Source: an uncultured Caryophanales bacterium
GTDB taxonomy: Bacteria; Bacillota_I; Bacilli_A; RFN20; CAG-826
Direction: 5' to 3'
Assembly (NCBI GenBank): GCA_946612115.1
Contig: CAMOEI010000008.1
Location: 1-43,505 of the forward strand
DNA length: 43,505 nucleotides
Made by a program: the position numbers and the translations under genes. The notes beneath the pieces were generated by a model that was given only the letters and a program-made list of their open reading frames with translations, ran no database searches and was not told the origin of the DNA. The first letter of the stretch is position 1. Each line of letters starts with the position of its first letter. Positions 16,083 through 33,186 of the stretch are shown here, piece after piece.

Positions 16083-16237
16083 TAGCTAGGCTGAGGCACC
16101 TCTGTTGCCCAACAGTCCTAGGCGTTTAATAAAAGAATGTCGAAGAGATGACGGGGCCCATAAAAAGGTACATCATTGAACGGTAGAGAATACGGCCAAG
16201 GGAATTGGACCCACGGTATCGGTTCTCATTTTATTTT
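16083..16237 (+). ncRNA. Structured RNA family, copy B
   Basis: It lies exactly 200 bp after copy A over its whole length. The first hairpin is CTAGG...CCTAG, the middle stem ATGA/TCAT encloses GGGGCCCATAAAAAGGTAC, and the closing helix is GAGAAT/GTTCTC followed by ATTTTATTTT. It has its own promoter. Its last 12 bases overlap the 3' end of the minus-strand gene 16226-16747, so the two transcripts are convergent with complementary 3' ends. Confidence 0.75.
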
Positions 16238-16747
16238 GTCCAATTCAACTTGATTTAAATAAACAATTTGTTCGATGCTGAACGATTTTAAATATTTATG
16301 AACTTTTTCCTTTGGAAAGATTGTCACCAATTTGTTAATTCCTGCATTCTCATCTTCGTTCAATCCACATTTAGTTTGAATCACAACAAGTAGTGGATTT
16401 CCATTTTCGTCTTGAGTAGGAATAATACATGCATATTTATAGTTATTTTCGCTAAGAATACATAATGGATCGTTAACATTTTTTGTTGCTTCGAGAACAA
16501 TTTCAGGAGTAAGTCCATGATAATTGTGTTTTCCTTTGCCACCAACTGGTTGCATTAATTCGTGCAGAGTAGTGGCATCAGCATATAGATCATTCTTGTG
16601 AAAAATTATTTTTTTAATTAGTTTGTTAATTCTACACAGATTTGTATTCCCGAATCTAACAACTAGGTTCTGATAATGCTTTGTTTGGATGGAATATAAC
16701 AAATTTAGTGTCGCTCTTCTTTTTTGAATGTTTGTGTATTTAATCAT
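16226..16747 (-). CDS. 173-aa protein, possible MuF-C/BECR-like domain (copy 1)
   Basis: The protein resembles, by eye, the phage MuF C-terminal and BECR-nuclease-like (PBECR) domains. It has HELMQPVGGKGKHNYHGLTP, then NDPLCILSE, IIPTQDENGNPLLVVI, INKLVTIFPKE and a terminal IVYLN. Those families are predicted toxins or RNases, but no catalytic residue can be assigned with confidence. It is free-standing, not fused to a phage head protein. A close paralogue (about half of residues identical) is at 18413-18931. The start has GGAG about 10 bases upstream and overlaps an upstream frame by ATGA. Two structured RNAs (A, B) lie convergently downstream. Confidence 0.6.
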   Translation of the reverse strand: MIKYTNIQKRRATLNLLYSIQTKHYQNLVVRFGNTNLCRINKLIKKIIFHKNDLYADATTLHELMQPVGGKGKHNYHGLTPEIVLEATKNVNDPLCILSENNYKYACIIPTQDENGNPLLVVIQTKCGLNEDENAGINKLVTIFPKEKVHKYLKSFSIEQIVYLNQVELDKIK

Positions 16748-18031: not shown

Positions 18032-18060
18032 TTGATTGCACCTCACTAAAGTGTTTAAAT
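18032..18060 (+). promoter_or_regulatory. Promoter of structured RNA copy C
   Basis: TTGATT (18032-18037), 17-bp spacer with CACTAAAGTG, TTAAAT (18055-18060), then 6 bases to AGCTAG. It closely parallels the promoter of copy B. Confidence 0.65.
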
Positions 18061-18065
18061 ATTAA

Positions 18066-18216
18066 TAGCTAGGTAGCGGTGCTAGCCATCCAACTATCCT
18101 AGGCGTTTCGTAAAAGAATGTCGAAGAGATGACAGGGCCCATGAAAAGGTACATCATCAAACGTTAGAGAATACGGCTGCAGGGATTGCCCAAGGTAACG
18201 GTTCTCATTTTATTTT
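18066..18216 (+). ncRNA. Structured RNA family, copy C
   Basis: It starts TAGCTAGGTAG and folds its 5' hairpin with CTATCCTAG. GGCGTTTC and AATGTCGAAGAGATGA follow, then stem ATGA/TCAT around GGGCCCATGAAAAGGTAC, GTTAGAGAATACGG, and the GAGAAT/GTTCTC closing helix ending in ATTTTATTTT. The first hairpin sequence differs from copies A and B while keeping its pairing. Confidence 0.75.
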
Positions 18217-18236
18217 GGATAAATCTAACAACTATG

Positions 18237-18265
18237 TTGAAAATCAACAAACTATTTGATTAAAT
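18237..18265 (+). promoter_or_regulatory. Promoter of structured RNA copy D
   Basis: TTGAAA (18237-18242), 17-bp spacer, TTAAAT (18260-18265), then 6 bases to AGCTAG. Confidence 0.65.
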
Positions 18266-18270
18266 AAAGA

Positions 18271-18424
18271 TAGCTAGGTAGCGGTGCTAGCCATCCAACT
18301 ATCCTAGGCGTTTCATAAATAAATGTCAGAGAGGTTGACTAGGCCCATAAAAAGGTACATCGCCGAATGGTAGGGAGTGCAGCCGAGGAAATTGGATCCA
18401 AGGTGATGACTCTCATTTTATTTT
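18271..18424 (+). ncRNA. Structured RNA family, copy D
   Basis: It is 205-208 bp after copy C. It has the same 5' hairpin as C but diverges in the middle (GGTTGACTAGGCCC, ACATCGCCGAA). The closing helix is GGGAGT/ACTCTC, a third base-paired version of this stem. The last 12 bases overlap the 3' end of the minus-strand gene 18413-18931, the same 12-base overlap as in copy B. Confidence 0.75.
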
Positions 18425-18931
18425 GTTTAATTCTATTTTGTTCAAATAAATAATCTTATTAGGTTTGACTCTACTTAAATAGTTGTTAATTTTTTCTTTT
18501 GGATACATGGTTACTAGTTTGTTTATATTCGCATCTAAATCATTATCTAATCTACAACCAGTTTCGATTACAGATAGAAGTGGGTCTCTGTTTTCGTATT
18601 TTGTCATCAAAACAATTGCATATTTATCATGTCCATCATCCAAAACACAGATAGGTTTTGCCAAATCGTTTATCGCGCTTAAAAATAACTTTGGGCTGAT
18701 GTTATGGTAATTATGTTTTCCTCTTCCTCCTTTTGGCTGCATCAAATCAAATAAAGTATCTGAATCAACATACAAGTCATTTTTCCTAAATAATGTGAAT
18801 TCAATAATCTCATTAATTCGCTTTAAATTTACATTTTTCAATTTAACGATGGTGGAATAACGTTTAGATCTAAATTCCTCTAAATCTTTTAATGCATTTT
18901 TTGTGTCTTTGATATTAATGAACTTTTTCAT
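18413..18931 (-). CDS. 172-aa protein, possible MuF-C/BECR-like domain (copy 2)
   Basis: This is the paralogue of 16226-16747. Conserved blocks are LFDLMQPKGGRGKHNYHNISP, KPICVLDDGHDKYAIVLMT, NRDPLLSVIETGC, ANINKLVTMYPKEKI and IIYLNKIELNKIK. The N-terminal 50 residues diverge more than the rest. GGAG lies about 9 bases before the ATG. The leader, the upstream hairpin and the pair of structured RNAs are duplicated with it, so the unit of duplication is the whole roughly 1-kb cassette. As for copy 1, the resemblance to MuF-C/PBECR phage domains is by eye and the function is unproven. Charge and size fit a small soluble enzyme or toxin. Confidence 0.6.
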   Translation of the reverse strand: MKKFINIKDTKNALKDLEEFRSKRYSTIVKLKNVNLKRINEIIEFTLFRKNDLYVDSDTLFDLMQPKGGRGKHNYHNISPKLFLSAINDLAKPICVLDDGHDKYAIVLMTKYENRDPLLSVIETGCRLDNDLDANINKLVTMYPKEKINNYLSRVKPNKIIYLNKIELNKIK

Positions 18932-30693: not shown

Positions 30694-30716
30694 AGGAGCC
30701 TTTGGCTCCTTTTTTA
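30694..30716. terminator. Terminator between convergent genes
   Basis: AGGAGCC-TTT-GGCTCCT followed by TTTTTT on the plus strand. It abuts the stop of the minus-strand HEPN gene. Confidence 0.85.
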
Positions 30717-31064
30717 TAGCAAACTCGATATTTTATCTCTTAATTTAATAATATCTATCGTAATAGCGGAATAGACGTAATGTAAATCAACATCCCCATA
30801 ATCATGGACTAGTCGATTTCTAAAGCCTTTAATTTGTCTCCATTCAATATCGTTATGAATTAATTTAAAAGTATCAGAAATCTTATCAGCGTGTTCTGAT
30901 ATTTGAATAAATCTTAATATAACTGCGTCAACTGTTTTGCTATCTAGATATAAGTCATATAGACTCACACCTTTTGAATATTGAACAATTAAATCAATCT
31001 CATCGATTATCTTTTTAAGATAATAGTTATCGTCTTTAACTTTTGGTGTAGATTTTAATTCCAT
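30714..31064 (-). CDS. hepT: HEPN-domain ribonuclease toxin (HepT-like, DUF86)
   Basis: This 116-aa all-helical protein has the HEPN catalytic motif R-x4-H-x-Y as Arg82 ... His87-Asp-Tyr89 (FRNRLVHDYGD). Related HepT proteins are toxins neutralised by a MntA nucleotidyltransferase that modifies a Tyr of this motif (type VII toxin-antitoxin). Its start overlaps the 3' end of the mntA-like gene by 29 bp, giving the usual antitoxin-then-toxin order with translational coupling. A chromosomal stability or phage-defence role is inferred from the family. Confidence 0.85.
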   Translation of the reverse strand: MELKSTPKVKDDNYYLKKIIDEIDLIVQYSKGVSLYDLYLDSKTVDAVILRFIQISEHADKISDTFKLIHNDIEWRQIKGFRNRLVHDYGDVDLHYVYSAITIDIIKLRDKISSLL

Positions 31065-31521
31065 CTTTTAAAATTTCGTTTAAAAGAGTTGGATTGTTAT
31101 TAAGTTGCTCTAAATTAAGTAGATCAACACGCTTTCTTAATTCTTCTCTTAAGTGTTCTGCTAGGCCATAGAATTCCATTCCGGTGATAGAAGTGGATAT
31201 TAATAAATCAATATCGCTGTTATCTTTTGCCTTGTGTCTGGCATAACTACCAAATAGATAACAGTAATCAACGTCATATTGAGATAAAATATCATTAATA
31301 GTAATTTTAATATCTTCTAAAGAAAGAACTCCGTGTTCTTCATCGATAAAACCATATTTCTCCAATTCTTGGATGAAATATTTGTATTTAACTGTATTAG
31401 TTTTATTTTGATTGTTCTCATAATCCTTATAGGATCTCAAAGACACTCCGAGTAATTTACTAGCAGCTATTTGTGTTAATCCTTTTTTAATTCTTAATTG
31501 TTTTAGTGACATATTATTCAT
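31036..31521 (-). CDS. mntA: XRE-HTH fused to MNT nucleotidyltransferase antitoxin
   Basis: This 161-aa protein has two domains. Residues 4-55 are an XRE-type helix-turn-helix (LKQLRIKKGLTQIAASKLLGVSLRSYKDYE). Residues of about 75-161 are a minimal nucleotidyltransferase with Gly91-Ser92-x10-Asp103-x-Asp105 (GSYARHKAKDNSDIDLL). MNT proteins antagonise HEPN toxins by AMP or polyphosphate-type transfer to the toxin. The HTH should let the antitoxin repress its own operon, and repeated TTGCACYTT sites surround the promoter. The -10 box lies so close that the ATG at 31521 is at the predicted transcript start (leaderless); an internal ATG at 31512 is the alternative. Confidence 0.85.
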   Translation of the reverse strand: MNNMSLKQLRIKKGLTQIAASKLLGVSLRSYKDYENNQNKTNTVKYKYFIQELEKYGFIDEEHGVLSLEDIKITINDILSQYDVDYCYLFGSYARHKAKDNSDIDLLISTSITGMEFYGLAEHLREELRKRVDLLNLEQLNNNPTLLNEILKDGIKIYTKS

Positions 31522-31602: not shown

Positions 31603-31650
31603 TCCCTCTTTTAAACTTTGTTTACCTCACTTTCTTAGATTTGAGGGCAG

Positions 31651-31679
31651 TTGACAAATATGGACCACCATGGTTTACT
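31651..31679 (+). promoter_or_regulatory. Plus-strand promoter facing the peptide gene
   Basis: Consensus TTGACA (31651-31656), 17-bp spacer, TTTACT (31674-31679). It would make a short RNA ending at 31718, antisense to the 3' end of the 23-aa peptide gene, or a longer one if the terminator is read through. Confidence 0.5.
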
Positions 31680-31692
31680 ATAAGTGTGTTGT

Positions 31693-31718
31693 GATCACCT
31701 TAGTGGTGGTCTTTTTTT
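31693..31718 (+). terminator. Terminator overlapping the peptide gene 3' end
   Basis: GATCACC-TTAGT-GGTGGTC followed by seven T. The loop contains the reverse complement of the peptide gene's TAA stop. Confidence 0.75.
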
Positions 31719-31771
31719 ATTTCGAGAATAATCGCTAGGATTATGACGAGAACAATCAAAGATATGTCCAT
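31700..31771 (-). CDS. 23-aa hydrophobic peptide, type I toxin-like
   Basis: The peptide is MDISLIVLVIILAIILE followed by a charged tail IKKDHH: one membrane helix plus a basic end, the usual design of Fst/TxpA/Ldr-type membrane toxins. AAGGAG lies 7 bases before the ATG. The mRNA leader on the minus strand is strongly structured: CCTGGCTA pairs with TAGCCAGG (31860-31867 with 31791-31798), with inner CGCCA/TGGCG. A plus-strand promoter and terminator overlap the 3' end, as in antisense-controlled systems. A longer frame (31756-31899) overlaps its start, reminiscent of mok/hok. Too short for ordinary gene finders. Confidence 0.6.
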   Translation of the reverse strand: MDISLIVLVIILAIILEIKKDHH

Positions 31772-31899
31772 AGGCAATCTCCTTTCCACCCCTGGCTATC
31801 ACGGTAGTGACCGCCAAGATAAGAAACCATGGAAAGAACTAATGGCGAATCACAAGGATTAGCCAGGAATAAGTAGGCAATAAATATCACTGCCCTCAT
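31756..31899 (-). CDS. Possible 47-codon upstream overlapping ORF
   Basis: It begins at the conserved leader ATGAGG (MRAVIFIAYLFLANPC...) and ends with TGA 16 bases inside the 23-aa peptide gene, in another frame. No Shine-Dalgarno sequence. It could be a leader frame that controls peptide translation, or only an open stretch of a structured RNA. Confidence 0.3.
   Translation of the reverse strand: MRAVIFIAYLFLANPCDSPLVLSMVSYLGGHYRDSQGWKGDCLWTYL
31791..31867 (-). promoter_or_regulatory. Structured leader of the peptide mRNA
   Basis: The 8-bp arms CCTGGCTA and TAGCCAGG close a branched fold containing CGGT-CACT-ACCG and CGCCA/TGGCG stems. It ends about 9 bases before the AAGGAG of the peptide gene and could mask or expose it. 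Confidence 0.5.
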
Positions 31900-31911
31900 T
31901 TATTAATAGGG
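31894..31911 (-). promoter_or_regulatory. Conserved leader element, copy 3
   Basis: CCTCATTTATTAATAGGG (plus-strand reading), identical to the cores at 16789-16806 and 18969-18986, here upstream of the peptide gene instead of the 172-173-aa gene. A separate perfect inverted repeat TATATTCA-TAT-TGAATATA lies upstream at 31955-31973. Confidence 0.5.
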
Positions 31912-32052
31912 AGAAAAATGGCATTCGTTTTAATGAAAGGTGAAAGAATATTTTTATATTCATATTGAATATAGATTTTCCTAGACAGTGTAACCATTCA
32001 TTTCTTTCTTGGTTGAAAAATTTTCATCAGTATTTATAATATATAATCATTG

Positions 32053-32250: not shown

Positions 32251-33186
32251 ATGAAAGAAGAAGGAATTGGCAAAAAAATTAAAAAGATTAGAGAAAACAA
32301 CAAATTAAGTCAGGATGAATTTGCAAAATCTTTAGGATATAAAGATAAATCGATGGTTTCTCATATTGAAAAAGGTGATTCTGATATGACCTATGAGAAA
32401 ATCCAATTGTTGCTCAAAGTCTACAATATAGACGCGAATGAATTGTTCGATTACGGTGAGCAAAACATAGATAACTCTAACCAACACTCTAGAACAGAGA
32501 TGCTAATTGGAAAAGAAGGATTAAAGAAACTACAGAGCACTAAAGTTCTACTATTTGGAATTGGTGGAGTTGGAGGAAGTGTTTTTGAAGCGTTGGTGAG
32601 ATCTGGAGTAGGAGAAATCACAGTAGTGGATAATGATGTCTTTGACATCACTAACCTCAACCGCCAAACTTTAGCGACATATTCTAATATTGGTAAACCA
32701 AAAGTCTATGAAGCAGTTAAAAGAGCAAACGAGATTAATAAAGATGTAAAAGTAATTCCTATTAAGCTTTTTTATCTTCCTGAAACCAAAGAACAATTTG
32801 ATTTCTCTAAATATGACTATGTCATTGACTGTGTTGACACAGTAAGCGCGAAACTTTCAATCGTTGAAGAAGCAAAGAAATGTAATGTAAAAGTTATTTC
32901 TGCGATGGGAGCGGGAAATAAACTTCATCCAGAACTACTTGAGATTAGTGATATTTCTAAAACCGAAGTTGATCCACTTGCGAAAGTCATTCGTAGAGAA
33001 TTGAGAAAATTAGGTATTAATCATCTAAAAGTTGTATTTTCTAAGGAATCTCCTATACAAAATAGCCCTTCTAAGGGGCGAAATGAGAAAGGAAGAGCAA
33101 TTCCTGGGAGTATGATGTTAATCCCTTCTAGCATGGGTTTATTGCTCGCTAGTGAGGTTATTAATGACTTGTTAGTTAATAATTAA
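32251..33186 (+). CDS. tcdA: XRE-HTH fused to TcdA-type E1-like enzyme
   Basis: This 311-aa protein has two domains. Residues 1-65 are an XRE helix-turn-helix (IKKIRENNKLSQDEFAKSLGYKDKSMVSHIEKG). Residues of about 78-311 are a TcdA/CsdL-type ThiF fold: HSRTEMLIGKEGL, nucleotide-binding GIGGVGG (103-109), NLNRQ, KPKV, DCVDT, GAGNK, DISKTEVDPLAKVIRRELRK, and the terminal GSMMLIPSSMGLLLASEVI. TcdA uses ATP to dehydrate and cyclise the tRNA modification t6A37 to ct6A. The N-terminal HTH is an unusual addition for this family. The ribosome binding site is TAGGAG. It ends at a terminator shared with the convergent GH2 gene. Confidence 0.88.
   Translation: MKEEGIGKKIKKIRENNKLSQDEFAKSLGYKDKSMVSHIEKGDSDMTYEKIQLLLKVYNIDANELFDYGEQNIDNSNQHSRTEMLIGKEGLKKLQSTKVLLFGIGGVGGSVFEALVRSGVGEITVVDNDVFDITNLNRQTLATYSNIGKPKVYEAVKRANEINKDVKVIPIKLFYLPETKEQFDFSKYDYVIDCVDTVSAKLSIVEEAKKCNVKVISAMGAGNKLHPELLEISDISKTEVDPLAKVIRRELRKLGINHLKVVFSKESPIQNSPSKGRNEKGRAIPGSMMLIPSSMGLLLASEVINDLLVNN

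Follow-up and report, generated by a model that had tools for sequence, protein, structure and literature searches.

Does the short hydrophobic reading frame near position 31,700 of this contig, faced by a promoter on the other strand, form a type I toxin-antitoxin locus, and does it belong to a known type? The initial annotation, made from the letters of the window (the whole stretch of 43,505 nucleotides from an uncultured Caryophanales bacterium that was analysed), had proposed such a locus and placed it with the Fst/par systems. We find that the gene of the 23-residue peptide and the opposing RNA promoter are genuine, and are part of a large, until now unnamed family in uncultured gut bacteria. 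The unit is probably a copy of a chromosomal type I toxin-antitoxin-like family that is under a competence promoter in a genus of uncultured rumen and gut Bacilli; of the original proposal, the convergent-RNA unit with its conserved frame stands as the best reading, and the Fst/par type does not. This reading follows from the conjunction of a short coding-constrained peptide, a predicted short convergent antisense RNA, a start site predicted to be hidden and the presence of multiple copies. Judged by comparison of sequences, the family itself, the coding constraint, the antisense promoter and the competence-type promoter appear well supported; the toxin function and the regulatory chain are what we infer from them.

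The unit combines a competence-type promoter, a strongly folded RNA of ~260-290 nt, and a convergent antisense promoter with its terminator (Table 1). The reading frame with its AAGGAG, the folded leader stem, the plus-strand promoter TTGACA-17-TTTACT, and a plus-strand hairpin that carries a T-run and overlaps the peptide gene at its 3' end had all been described initially and are present in the sequence. To these we add the GAGGGCAGT/ACTGCCCTC end pairing, the competence-type promoter and the further copies of the unit. A 47-residue ORF overlapping the leader (31899-31756, minus strand) was rejected as a conserved gene because early stops interrupt its frame in the divergent copies.

Table 1. 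Features of the peptide-antisense unit, in positions of the window
Feature	Position	Strand	Basis and remarks
Whole unit	31643..31898	minus	Predicted sense RNA ~256 nt, its limits deduced from promoter and end pairing
Competence-type promoter core CCCTATTAATAAATGAG	31895..31911	minus	Motif matches in own genome and weight matrix of relatives
Upstream promoter region, TATATTC..GAATATA dyad and ATTAAAACGAATGCC	31912..31990	minus	Common to C3 copy; partly common to pilus-operon promoter on C7
5' hairpin GGCAGTG..ATTGCC	31875..31896	minus	Sequence and prediction only; competes with 5'/3' end pairing
5' arm GAGGGCAGT of 5'/3' end pairing	31889..31897	minus	Partner co-changes in other units
3' arm ACTGCCCTC of end pairing	31643..31651	minus	Complementarity to 5' arm
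Leader stem CCTGGCTA (31867-31860) / TAGCCAGG (31798-31791)	31791..31867	minus	Counterparts in divergent copies
Leader core TTCTTTCC	31838-31831 (block 31824..31838)	minus	Complement of Shine-Dalgarno region
Leader segment CCATGGTTT	31832-31824	minus	Complementary to 3'UTR
Shine-Dalgarno AAGGAG	31779..31784	minus	Read from sequence
23-aa hydrophobic peptide ORF, MDISLIVLVIILAIILEIKKDHH	31700..31771	minus	Coding selection and profile relatives
3'UTR segment AAACCATGG	31668..31676	minus	Pairs with leader; also within antisense promoter
Antisense promoter TTGACA-17-TTTACT (or -19-TACTAT)	31651..31681	plus	TTGACA 31651-31656, TTTACT 31674-31679, TACTAT 31676-31681
Predicted antisense RNA, ~30-45 nt, start inferred	31686..31718	plus	Ends at hairpin and U-run 31693-31718

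A DNA search of the same assembly (1.23 Mb, 30 contigs) retrieved a full copy, 99% identical, on contig C3; contigs C18, C21 and C1 end within near-identical fragments, the assembly having broken on repeats. Divergent copies were found on C4 (two) and C5 (one), together with an ORF-less remnant at rplM on C2 that has no counterpart in 15 relatives. The total for the genome is eight units, seven with the ORF and one remnant, and the 3' boundary of the unit is sharp, at CCTC. The peptide is MDISLIVLVIILAIILEIKKDHH both in the window and on C3, MNNELILLLLLLLAVLTKIKGPKD on C5, and MNNELILLLLLLFAVLSKIKDPKD and MVDLIVVLLITLAIICKIKD, respectively, in the first and second C4 units. Complementary segments change together across these copies, both at the ends (GAGGGCAGT/ACTGCCCTC, GAGGACACTC/GAGTGTCCTC and GAGGGGACTTT/AAAGGACCCTC, the last with two central mismatches) and in the leader stem (CCTGGCTA/TAGCCAGG, CTCTAGCG/CGCTGGAG and CCCTAGTAA/TTACTAGGG).

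Peptide profiles were built from 12 peptides and then from 22 (alignment A3). At E <= 1e-3, the 22-peptide profile detected members in 15 of the 19 same-genus genomes, four being without any unit, and in 3 of the 177 other genomes of the family. The same-genus assemblies are from rumen and gut and are labelled Erysipelotrichaceae, Bacillales or Bacilli bacterium. The loci outside the genus were read by eye: L289 has the promoter, leader core and peptide, its contig ending before the antisense side; L290 has the leader/3'UTR repeat and the peptide; and L292 has another upstream promoter, with a leader segment repeated inverted in the 3'UTR, as in the family. All the ORFs encode 20-29 residues, hydrophobic with a basic tail. 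A second subfamily of hydrophobic peptides (VETLIVFAVILFIVLVAVKRN, MEVGGELACLILFVIALVVITIIFKR, MELLVLLIVLLVVVGLLLKR) occurs in units near pilus and rpsF operons (L329, L339, L134, L135).

Conservation of the peptide frame among relatives had been named as a check on the proposal, and the frame is indeed kept under coding selection. Across 19 pairs of nearest neighbours with ORFs of equal length, differences at codon positions 1, 2 and 3 number 47, 44 and 92, with 86 synonymous and 97 nonsynonymous; the synonymous fraction of 0.470 compares with 0.271 +- 0.030 (maximum 0.383) expected when the same substitutions are placed at random. The two alternative frames hold stops in 43/43 and 40/43 units. 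The ORF evolves as a coding sequence, with the amino-acid sequence constrained beyond a mere open frame. No known Pfam or NCBIfam toxin family and no PDB entry matches the peptides, and no Fst/Ldr, hok or aapA model is among the Pfam/NCBIfam matches at E <= 10; one family member weakly matches the putative bacteriocin model YxzE (E 0.41). Tryptophan is absent from the 22 family peptides, and P-x-x-x-G is found only in the tail of some of them, in none within the membrane helix.

By itself, the antisense promoter is weak and unconvincing evidence, and the case for it rests on comparison. The site scan gave two terminator-like sites in the region, against 0.6 expected; TTGACA-17-TTTACT was unlisted by the promoter scan because its rule requires A at position 2 of the -10 element. 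The core of this promoter (24 fixed bases) occurs eight times in the genome with no mismatch and in none of the 195 other genomes of the family with up to three mismatches allowed. Since the units that share the core differ by ~30% or more elsewhere, its unchanged recurrence goes beyond chance. Under a strict rule, a convergent promoter was found in 33 of the 39 distinct peptide-selected hits (E <= 1e-5) with enough downstream sequence, compared with 7% of shuffles, a count that is not fully independent because the rows of alignment A3 were partly assembled by a rule demanding a convergent promoter. Two of the misses are units of the own genome whose -10 spacing fails the strict rule. At E <= 1e-3, the figures are 37 of 54 hits and 6% of shuffles; in 35 of these 37, the -35 element has its far end 43-59 nt from the stop codon, the commonest distance being 46.

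A strict antisense terminator is present in 25 of the 43 units and in 2.3% of shuffles, and the complement of its poly-U run encodes the conserved IK(K/G/D) tail of the peptide. A terminator region shared by the two RNAs had been named as a trait of Fst/par-type systems; here the hairpin at 31693-31718 has a U-run solely on the antisense side, so it is not bidirectional, and no sense terminator was seen at the 3' end of the unit. The predicted antisense RNA, of ~30-45 nt, would cover the 3' end of the peptide gene.

The leaders hold a segment complementary to the 3'UTR at the antisense promoter (CCATGGTTT here, TGTGACTT in G134, CGTGGTCT in G164). Leaders pair with their own 3'UTR at -21.3 kcal/mol, compared with -19.1 for swapped partners (p 0.0024, 15 non-redundant units). 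This test started from 39 of the 43 units, four without landmarks having been dropped; among the 15, G022C59, whose upstream sequence is another unit, pairs poorly and was retained. For the 5' and 3' ends (30 units, then 13 non-redundant), the values are -12.6 for own and -8.4 for swapped pairs, with 0 of 20,000 permutations; strong end pairing is present in just 6 of the 30 units, four from the own genome and two from G116, and these mainly drive the effect. Pairing of the leader with the Shine-Dalgarno sequence is weak (p 0.04). Between the antisense RNA and the start region, own pairs did not exceed swapped ones (-20.60 vs -20.69 kcal/mol, p 0.53, 15 units), and the longest exact direct repeat in these units is 5-8 nt. 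The convergent antisense promoter and the leader/3'UTR and 5'/3' complementarities appear to be conserved although the sequences themselves change.

In predicted folds of 31 units, the full RNA is more stable than its shuffles (mean z -2.65, range -1.0 to -5.3). The mean unpaired fraction of the Shine-Dalgarno sequence is predicted to be 0.20 in the full RNA, consistent with a ribosome site hidden in the primary mRNA, 0.15 in an RNA cut after the ORF, and 0.21 in the leader alone. Since it is mostly paired also in the leader alone, the start site is likely to be hidden by the leader itself. A hok-like opening by 3' trimming is unsupported, because removing the 3' end frees no Shine-Dalgarno sequence in these predictions.

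The 17-base motif CCCTATTAATAAATGAG occurs at 12 sites in the genome at <= 2 mismatches. Six of these are units; the other six head recA, a 60-aa peptide followed by radC, three MuF_C-like genes (two confirmed by Pfam, the third, on C2, by sequence resemblance only) and a T2SSE pilus-ATPase operon. In the same genus, recA, dprA and comEA are preceded by a drifted form of this promoter; in streptococci, recA, dprA, comEA, ssb and radC are among the core late competence genes. A simple motif rule proved too loose, and a position weight matrix was used instead, learned from 47 regions upstream of recA, dprA and comEA of the relatives. The G140 recA locus (L060, where a contig end shifted the start), the G146 comEA (L097) and two G110 dprA fragments were left out. 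The full 30-column matrix includes ribosome-site columns and scores the units lower, hence only the first 20 columns were used. The best motif window ends <= 11 bases from the gene start in 46 of the 47 regions, the exception being L062, with a poor score.

At a level reached by at most 1 in 100 shuffles, this matrix recognises 29 of the 43 units, 120-153 nt before the start codon. The remaining 14, without a clear competence promoter, are mostly second tandem units, contig-end or fused units, along with two borderline cases and the C4 unit that has a hairpin inserted in its promoter. Such a hairpin (GGAAATAC..GTATTTCC and similar) lies within the promoter region of some units: that C4 unit (L014), L111 and L115. 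Upstream of the pilus ATPase, at 2.2-3.1 kb from its matched stretch, the matrix locates the promoter in 11 of 13 relatives, taking as calls the scores above the highest opposite-strand score, 15.9 (L327 and L332 fall below). Thus, the units appear to be headed by a promoter common to DNA-uptake and recombination genes. An SOS reading, which the sharing of the promoter with recA might suggest, was rejected because LexA is absent from 19/19 genus genomes (the same search matched in 9 of 14 control genomes) and because comEA, dprA and the pilus operon share the promoter.

Several other genes of this genome carry the same type of promoter. At L028 1501-1820 (G000:C1:157074), it heads the 60-aa peptide, which is bacteriocin-like (MKYTLMNEQELAN...), and radC. 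At L326 163-4605 (G000:C7:32362 onward), it heads a pilus-type operon with the T2SSE ATPase and two membrane proteins, which we take to be Tad-like in look rather than a classical comG operon. The MuF_C (phage MuF C-terminal) genes, each under such a promoter, lie at 16226-16747 and 18413-18931 of the window (both minus strand) and at G000:C2:49548, and could encode competence-induced nucleases or effectors.

The insertion sites can be compared with empty ones. Among the relatives, greA is followed by comEA in 15 of 16 loci, with a gap of 65-159 nt (the sixteenth comEA locus begins at a contig end), and dprA follows a gene with a uniformly alike end, presumably rnhB, in 17 of 17, with a gap of 44-105 nt; the relatives have no insert at comEA or dprA. 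In the own genome, the promoter and the 5' part of a unit lie 96 nt beyond greA (C18), and the 3' end of a unit lies 15 nt upstream of comEA (C1; comEC next) and 42 nt upstream of dprA (C21; topA next), where the names greA, comEC and topA are assigned from sequence. We infer the greA-unit-comEA link across the contig break.

Another unit of the own genome precedes rpsF-ssb, presumably in the operon order rpsF-ssb-rpsR. Across 15 genomes, the own one included, 10 have a unit at the rpsF site by rule; the rest show a peptide with a GTG start (G152), a decayed or different unit (G146), a remnant (G158), or the promoter only (G095 and G103). In G116, the frame at this site is open and without ATG. 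The unit upstream of rpsF thus appears to be ancestral or recurrent. Three genomes (G046, G022 and G067) carry two different units in tandem, and in G146 and G152 a second-subfamily unit separates the pilus operon from the promoter. Among the 30 units outside rpsF, 21 are followed by a gene on the opposite strand and seven by one on the same strand; for two, no next gene was found.

Plasmids yielded no match to the unit, phages only 33-nt matches at chance level (E 0.1), viral contigs no match for two exact core patterns, and a collection of genome contigs no occurrence of the antisense-promoter core. At the gathering level, Rfam matched nothing in the whole window except three tRNAs, and over the unit its matches are at chance level, the best being RyhB with 20.3 bits against a cut-off of 55.

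On the type I toxin-antitoxin reading, a steady antisense RNA, made outside competence too, would pair with the 3' portion of the peptide mRNA, marking it for decay. The leader would hide the ribosome site, and the full-length mRNA would be held closed by pairing of the leader with the 3'UTR and, in some subfamilies, of the 5' end with the 3' end. Given that the antisense RNA covers the 3' end and shows no start-region pairing, repression would have to act via decay or a block elsewhere. When the competence promoter fires, the mRNA would outrun the antisense RNA, and some molecules would open or be trimmed; the peptide would then insert into the membrane, and the cell would be slowed or killed, or competence ended. 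A more specific version, which we put forward only tentatively and judge unlikely, is that the unit is a selfish, spreading RNA-toxin element that captures competence promoters and kills or arrests recombinants from which it has been lost (post-transformation killing). Such an element would insert between the promoter and DNA-uptake genes and be transcribed just when incoming DNA could replace the locus, so that the cell could not be cured of it by transformation. The multicopy spread, the units in tandem, the turnover of sequences at rpsF-ssb within the genus, and the units gained at comEA and dprA would then be accounted for.

The same arrangement could be a cis-acting leader, in which a structured RNA and a leader peptide tune the downstream competence gene by attenuation or timing and the peptide is no toxin. 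Here, units do stand directly upstream of comEA and dprA (15 and 42 nt) and also precede rpsF-ssb; most relatives have one upstream of rpsF, two have one between promoter and pilus operon, and no sense terminator is seen at the 3' end of the unit. We nevertheless regard a leader as unlikely: a unit followed by a gene of the opposite strand, as are 21 of the 30 outside rpsF, has nothing to lead, and this stand-alone placement speaks against a mere leader for competence genes; attenuation needs no convergent promoter with its own terminator, and the amino-acid sequence is constrained beyond the frame alone. Quite unlikely, too, is a competence-induced secreted or membrane peptide (a bacteriocin, fratricide factor or signal) with an antisense RNA merely fine-tuning it. 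The competence promoter, the short hydrophobic peptide with a basic tail, the many diverging paralogues per genome, as in bacteriocin repertoires, and the weak YxzE match would suit it; the peptides are without a leader or processing site, no recognised immunity or export gene lies beside the units in the loci read, and layered RNA control is typical of toxins harmful to their producer.

Near-identical dispersed copies, inverted ends with a sharp boundary on the 3' side, one copy with an internal deletion, and insertions at comEA and dprA where relatives have empty sites are what a non-coding, MITE-like mobile repeat would leave, its ORF being accidental and its ends transposon inverted repeats. 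This explanation seems very improbable to us, given that the ends differ between subfamilies yet stay complementary, unlike ends recognised by a transposase, and that coding selection acts on the ORF, with neither of the other two frames kept open; the unit may be mobile in addition to its coding function. We consider true membership in the Fst/par family extremely improbable. Passages of PMC7472228 give as hallmarks convergent promoters, a shared terminator, direct repeats and a Trp/PXXXG signature. The units resemble par/Fst (Fst/Ldr superfamily), as it is described there, in the predicted convergent sense and ~40-nt antisense RNAs, an mRNA of ~230-260 nt, the small charged-tail membrane peptide and the hidden Shine-Dalgarno sequence (PMC7472228). 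Among the Fst/par features, the fit seems limited to the promoters, the sizes and the hidden start site: unlike par/Fst, the family described here has no shared bidirectional terminator, no direct repeats of the DRa/DRb kind, no Trp or helix PXXXG and no match to an Fst model, and it has a competence-type promoter and a leader that pairs with its own 3'UTR.

Other type I systems offer partial parallels. Ibs/Sib (QUAD) and Ldr/Rdl of E. coli are short hydrophobic peptides encoded in chromosomal repeats with antisense RNAs, in a different antisense layout; unlike them, the peptides here match no Pfam/NCBIfam toxin model and have another promoter. In hok/Sok and aapA/IsoA, the antisense RNA lies on the leader. 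No antisense RNA against the leader or start region was found here, the promoter and terminator being at the 3' end of the ORF and start-region pairing lacking; the family further differs from both systems in its unrelated peptide and in having strong end pairing in only 6 of 30 units. Shared with aapA/IsoA (Helicobacter) and hok/Sok (E. coli), as treated in passages of PMC6733600, are the multicopy chromosomal units, a predicted folded mRNA, 5'/3' pairing predicted in part of the family and, possibly, a short-lived 5' hairpin. Three type I toxins of E. coli, tisB, dinQ and symE, are under LexA according to a section of PMC4147584, and the units are like them in setting a putative type I toxin under the promoter of a DNA-related regulon; unlike those SOS toxins, the regulon here is competence-like and LexA is absent. 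Competence control of a toxin-antitoxin system is described for toxTA in portions of PMC6957337, which present, unlike the units here, a two-gene protein system with type II homology and not an antisense-RNA insert before competence genes. A literature search, with most subscription papers and preprints outside its scope, retrieved no description of a competence-controlled type I system.

If the type I reading is true, the DNA-uptake programme of uncultured gut bacteria includes peptide toxins under RNA control, present as several diverging copies in each genome, and the units directly before comEA, dprA, ssb and pilus genes would link type I toxin-antitoxin systems to natural transformation. 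They might then serve as a competence brake, as a guard against replacement by transforming DNA, or be selfish passengers. The analysis also yields a competence-regulon promoter motif for the group and a peptide profile (alignment A3) for finding relatives.

An XRE-MNT/HEPN pair next to the unit had been pointed out as a second, adjoining toxin system. The pair is genuine (30714-31521, minus strand): an XRE-MNT nucleotidyltransferase and a HepT-like HEPN protein, type VII toxin-antitoxin-like, which score below the NCBIfam equivalog cut-offs and above those of Pfam. Its adjacency looks incidental because the next same-strand genes listed for other units differ. On the other side, a gene for an HTH-ThiF (E1-like adenylyltransferase) fusion adjoins the unit divergently (32251-33186, plus strand). 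Elsewhere in the window, between two MuF_C-type genes, a block of ~205 nt occurs twice in tandem (18052-18435, plus strand), with core identities of 88% over 77 nt, 71% over 59 nt and 82% over 38 nt; it matches no Rfam family even at E 5 and is possibly an undescribed structured RNA.
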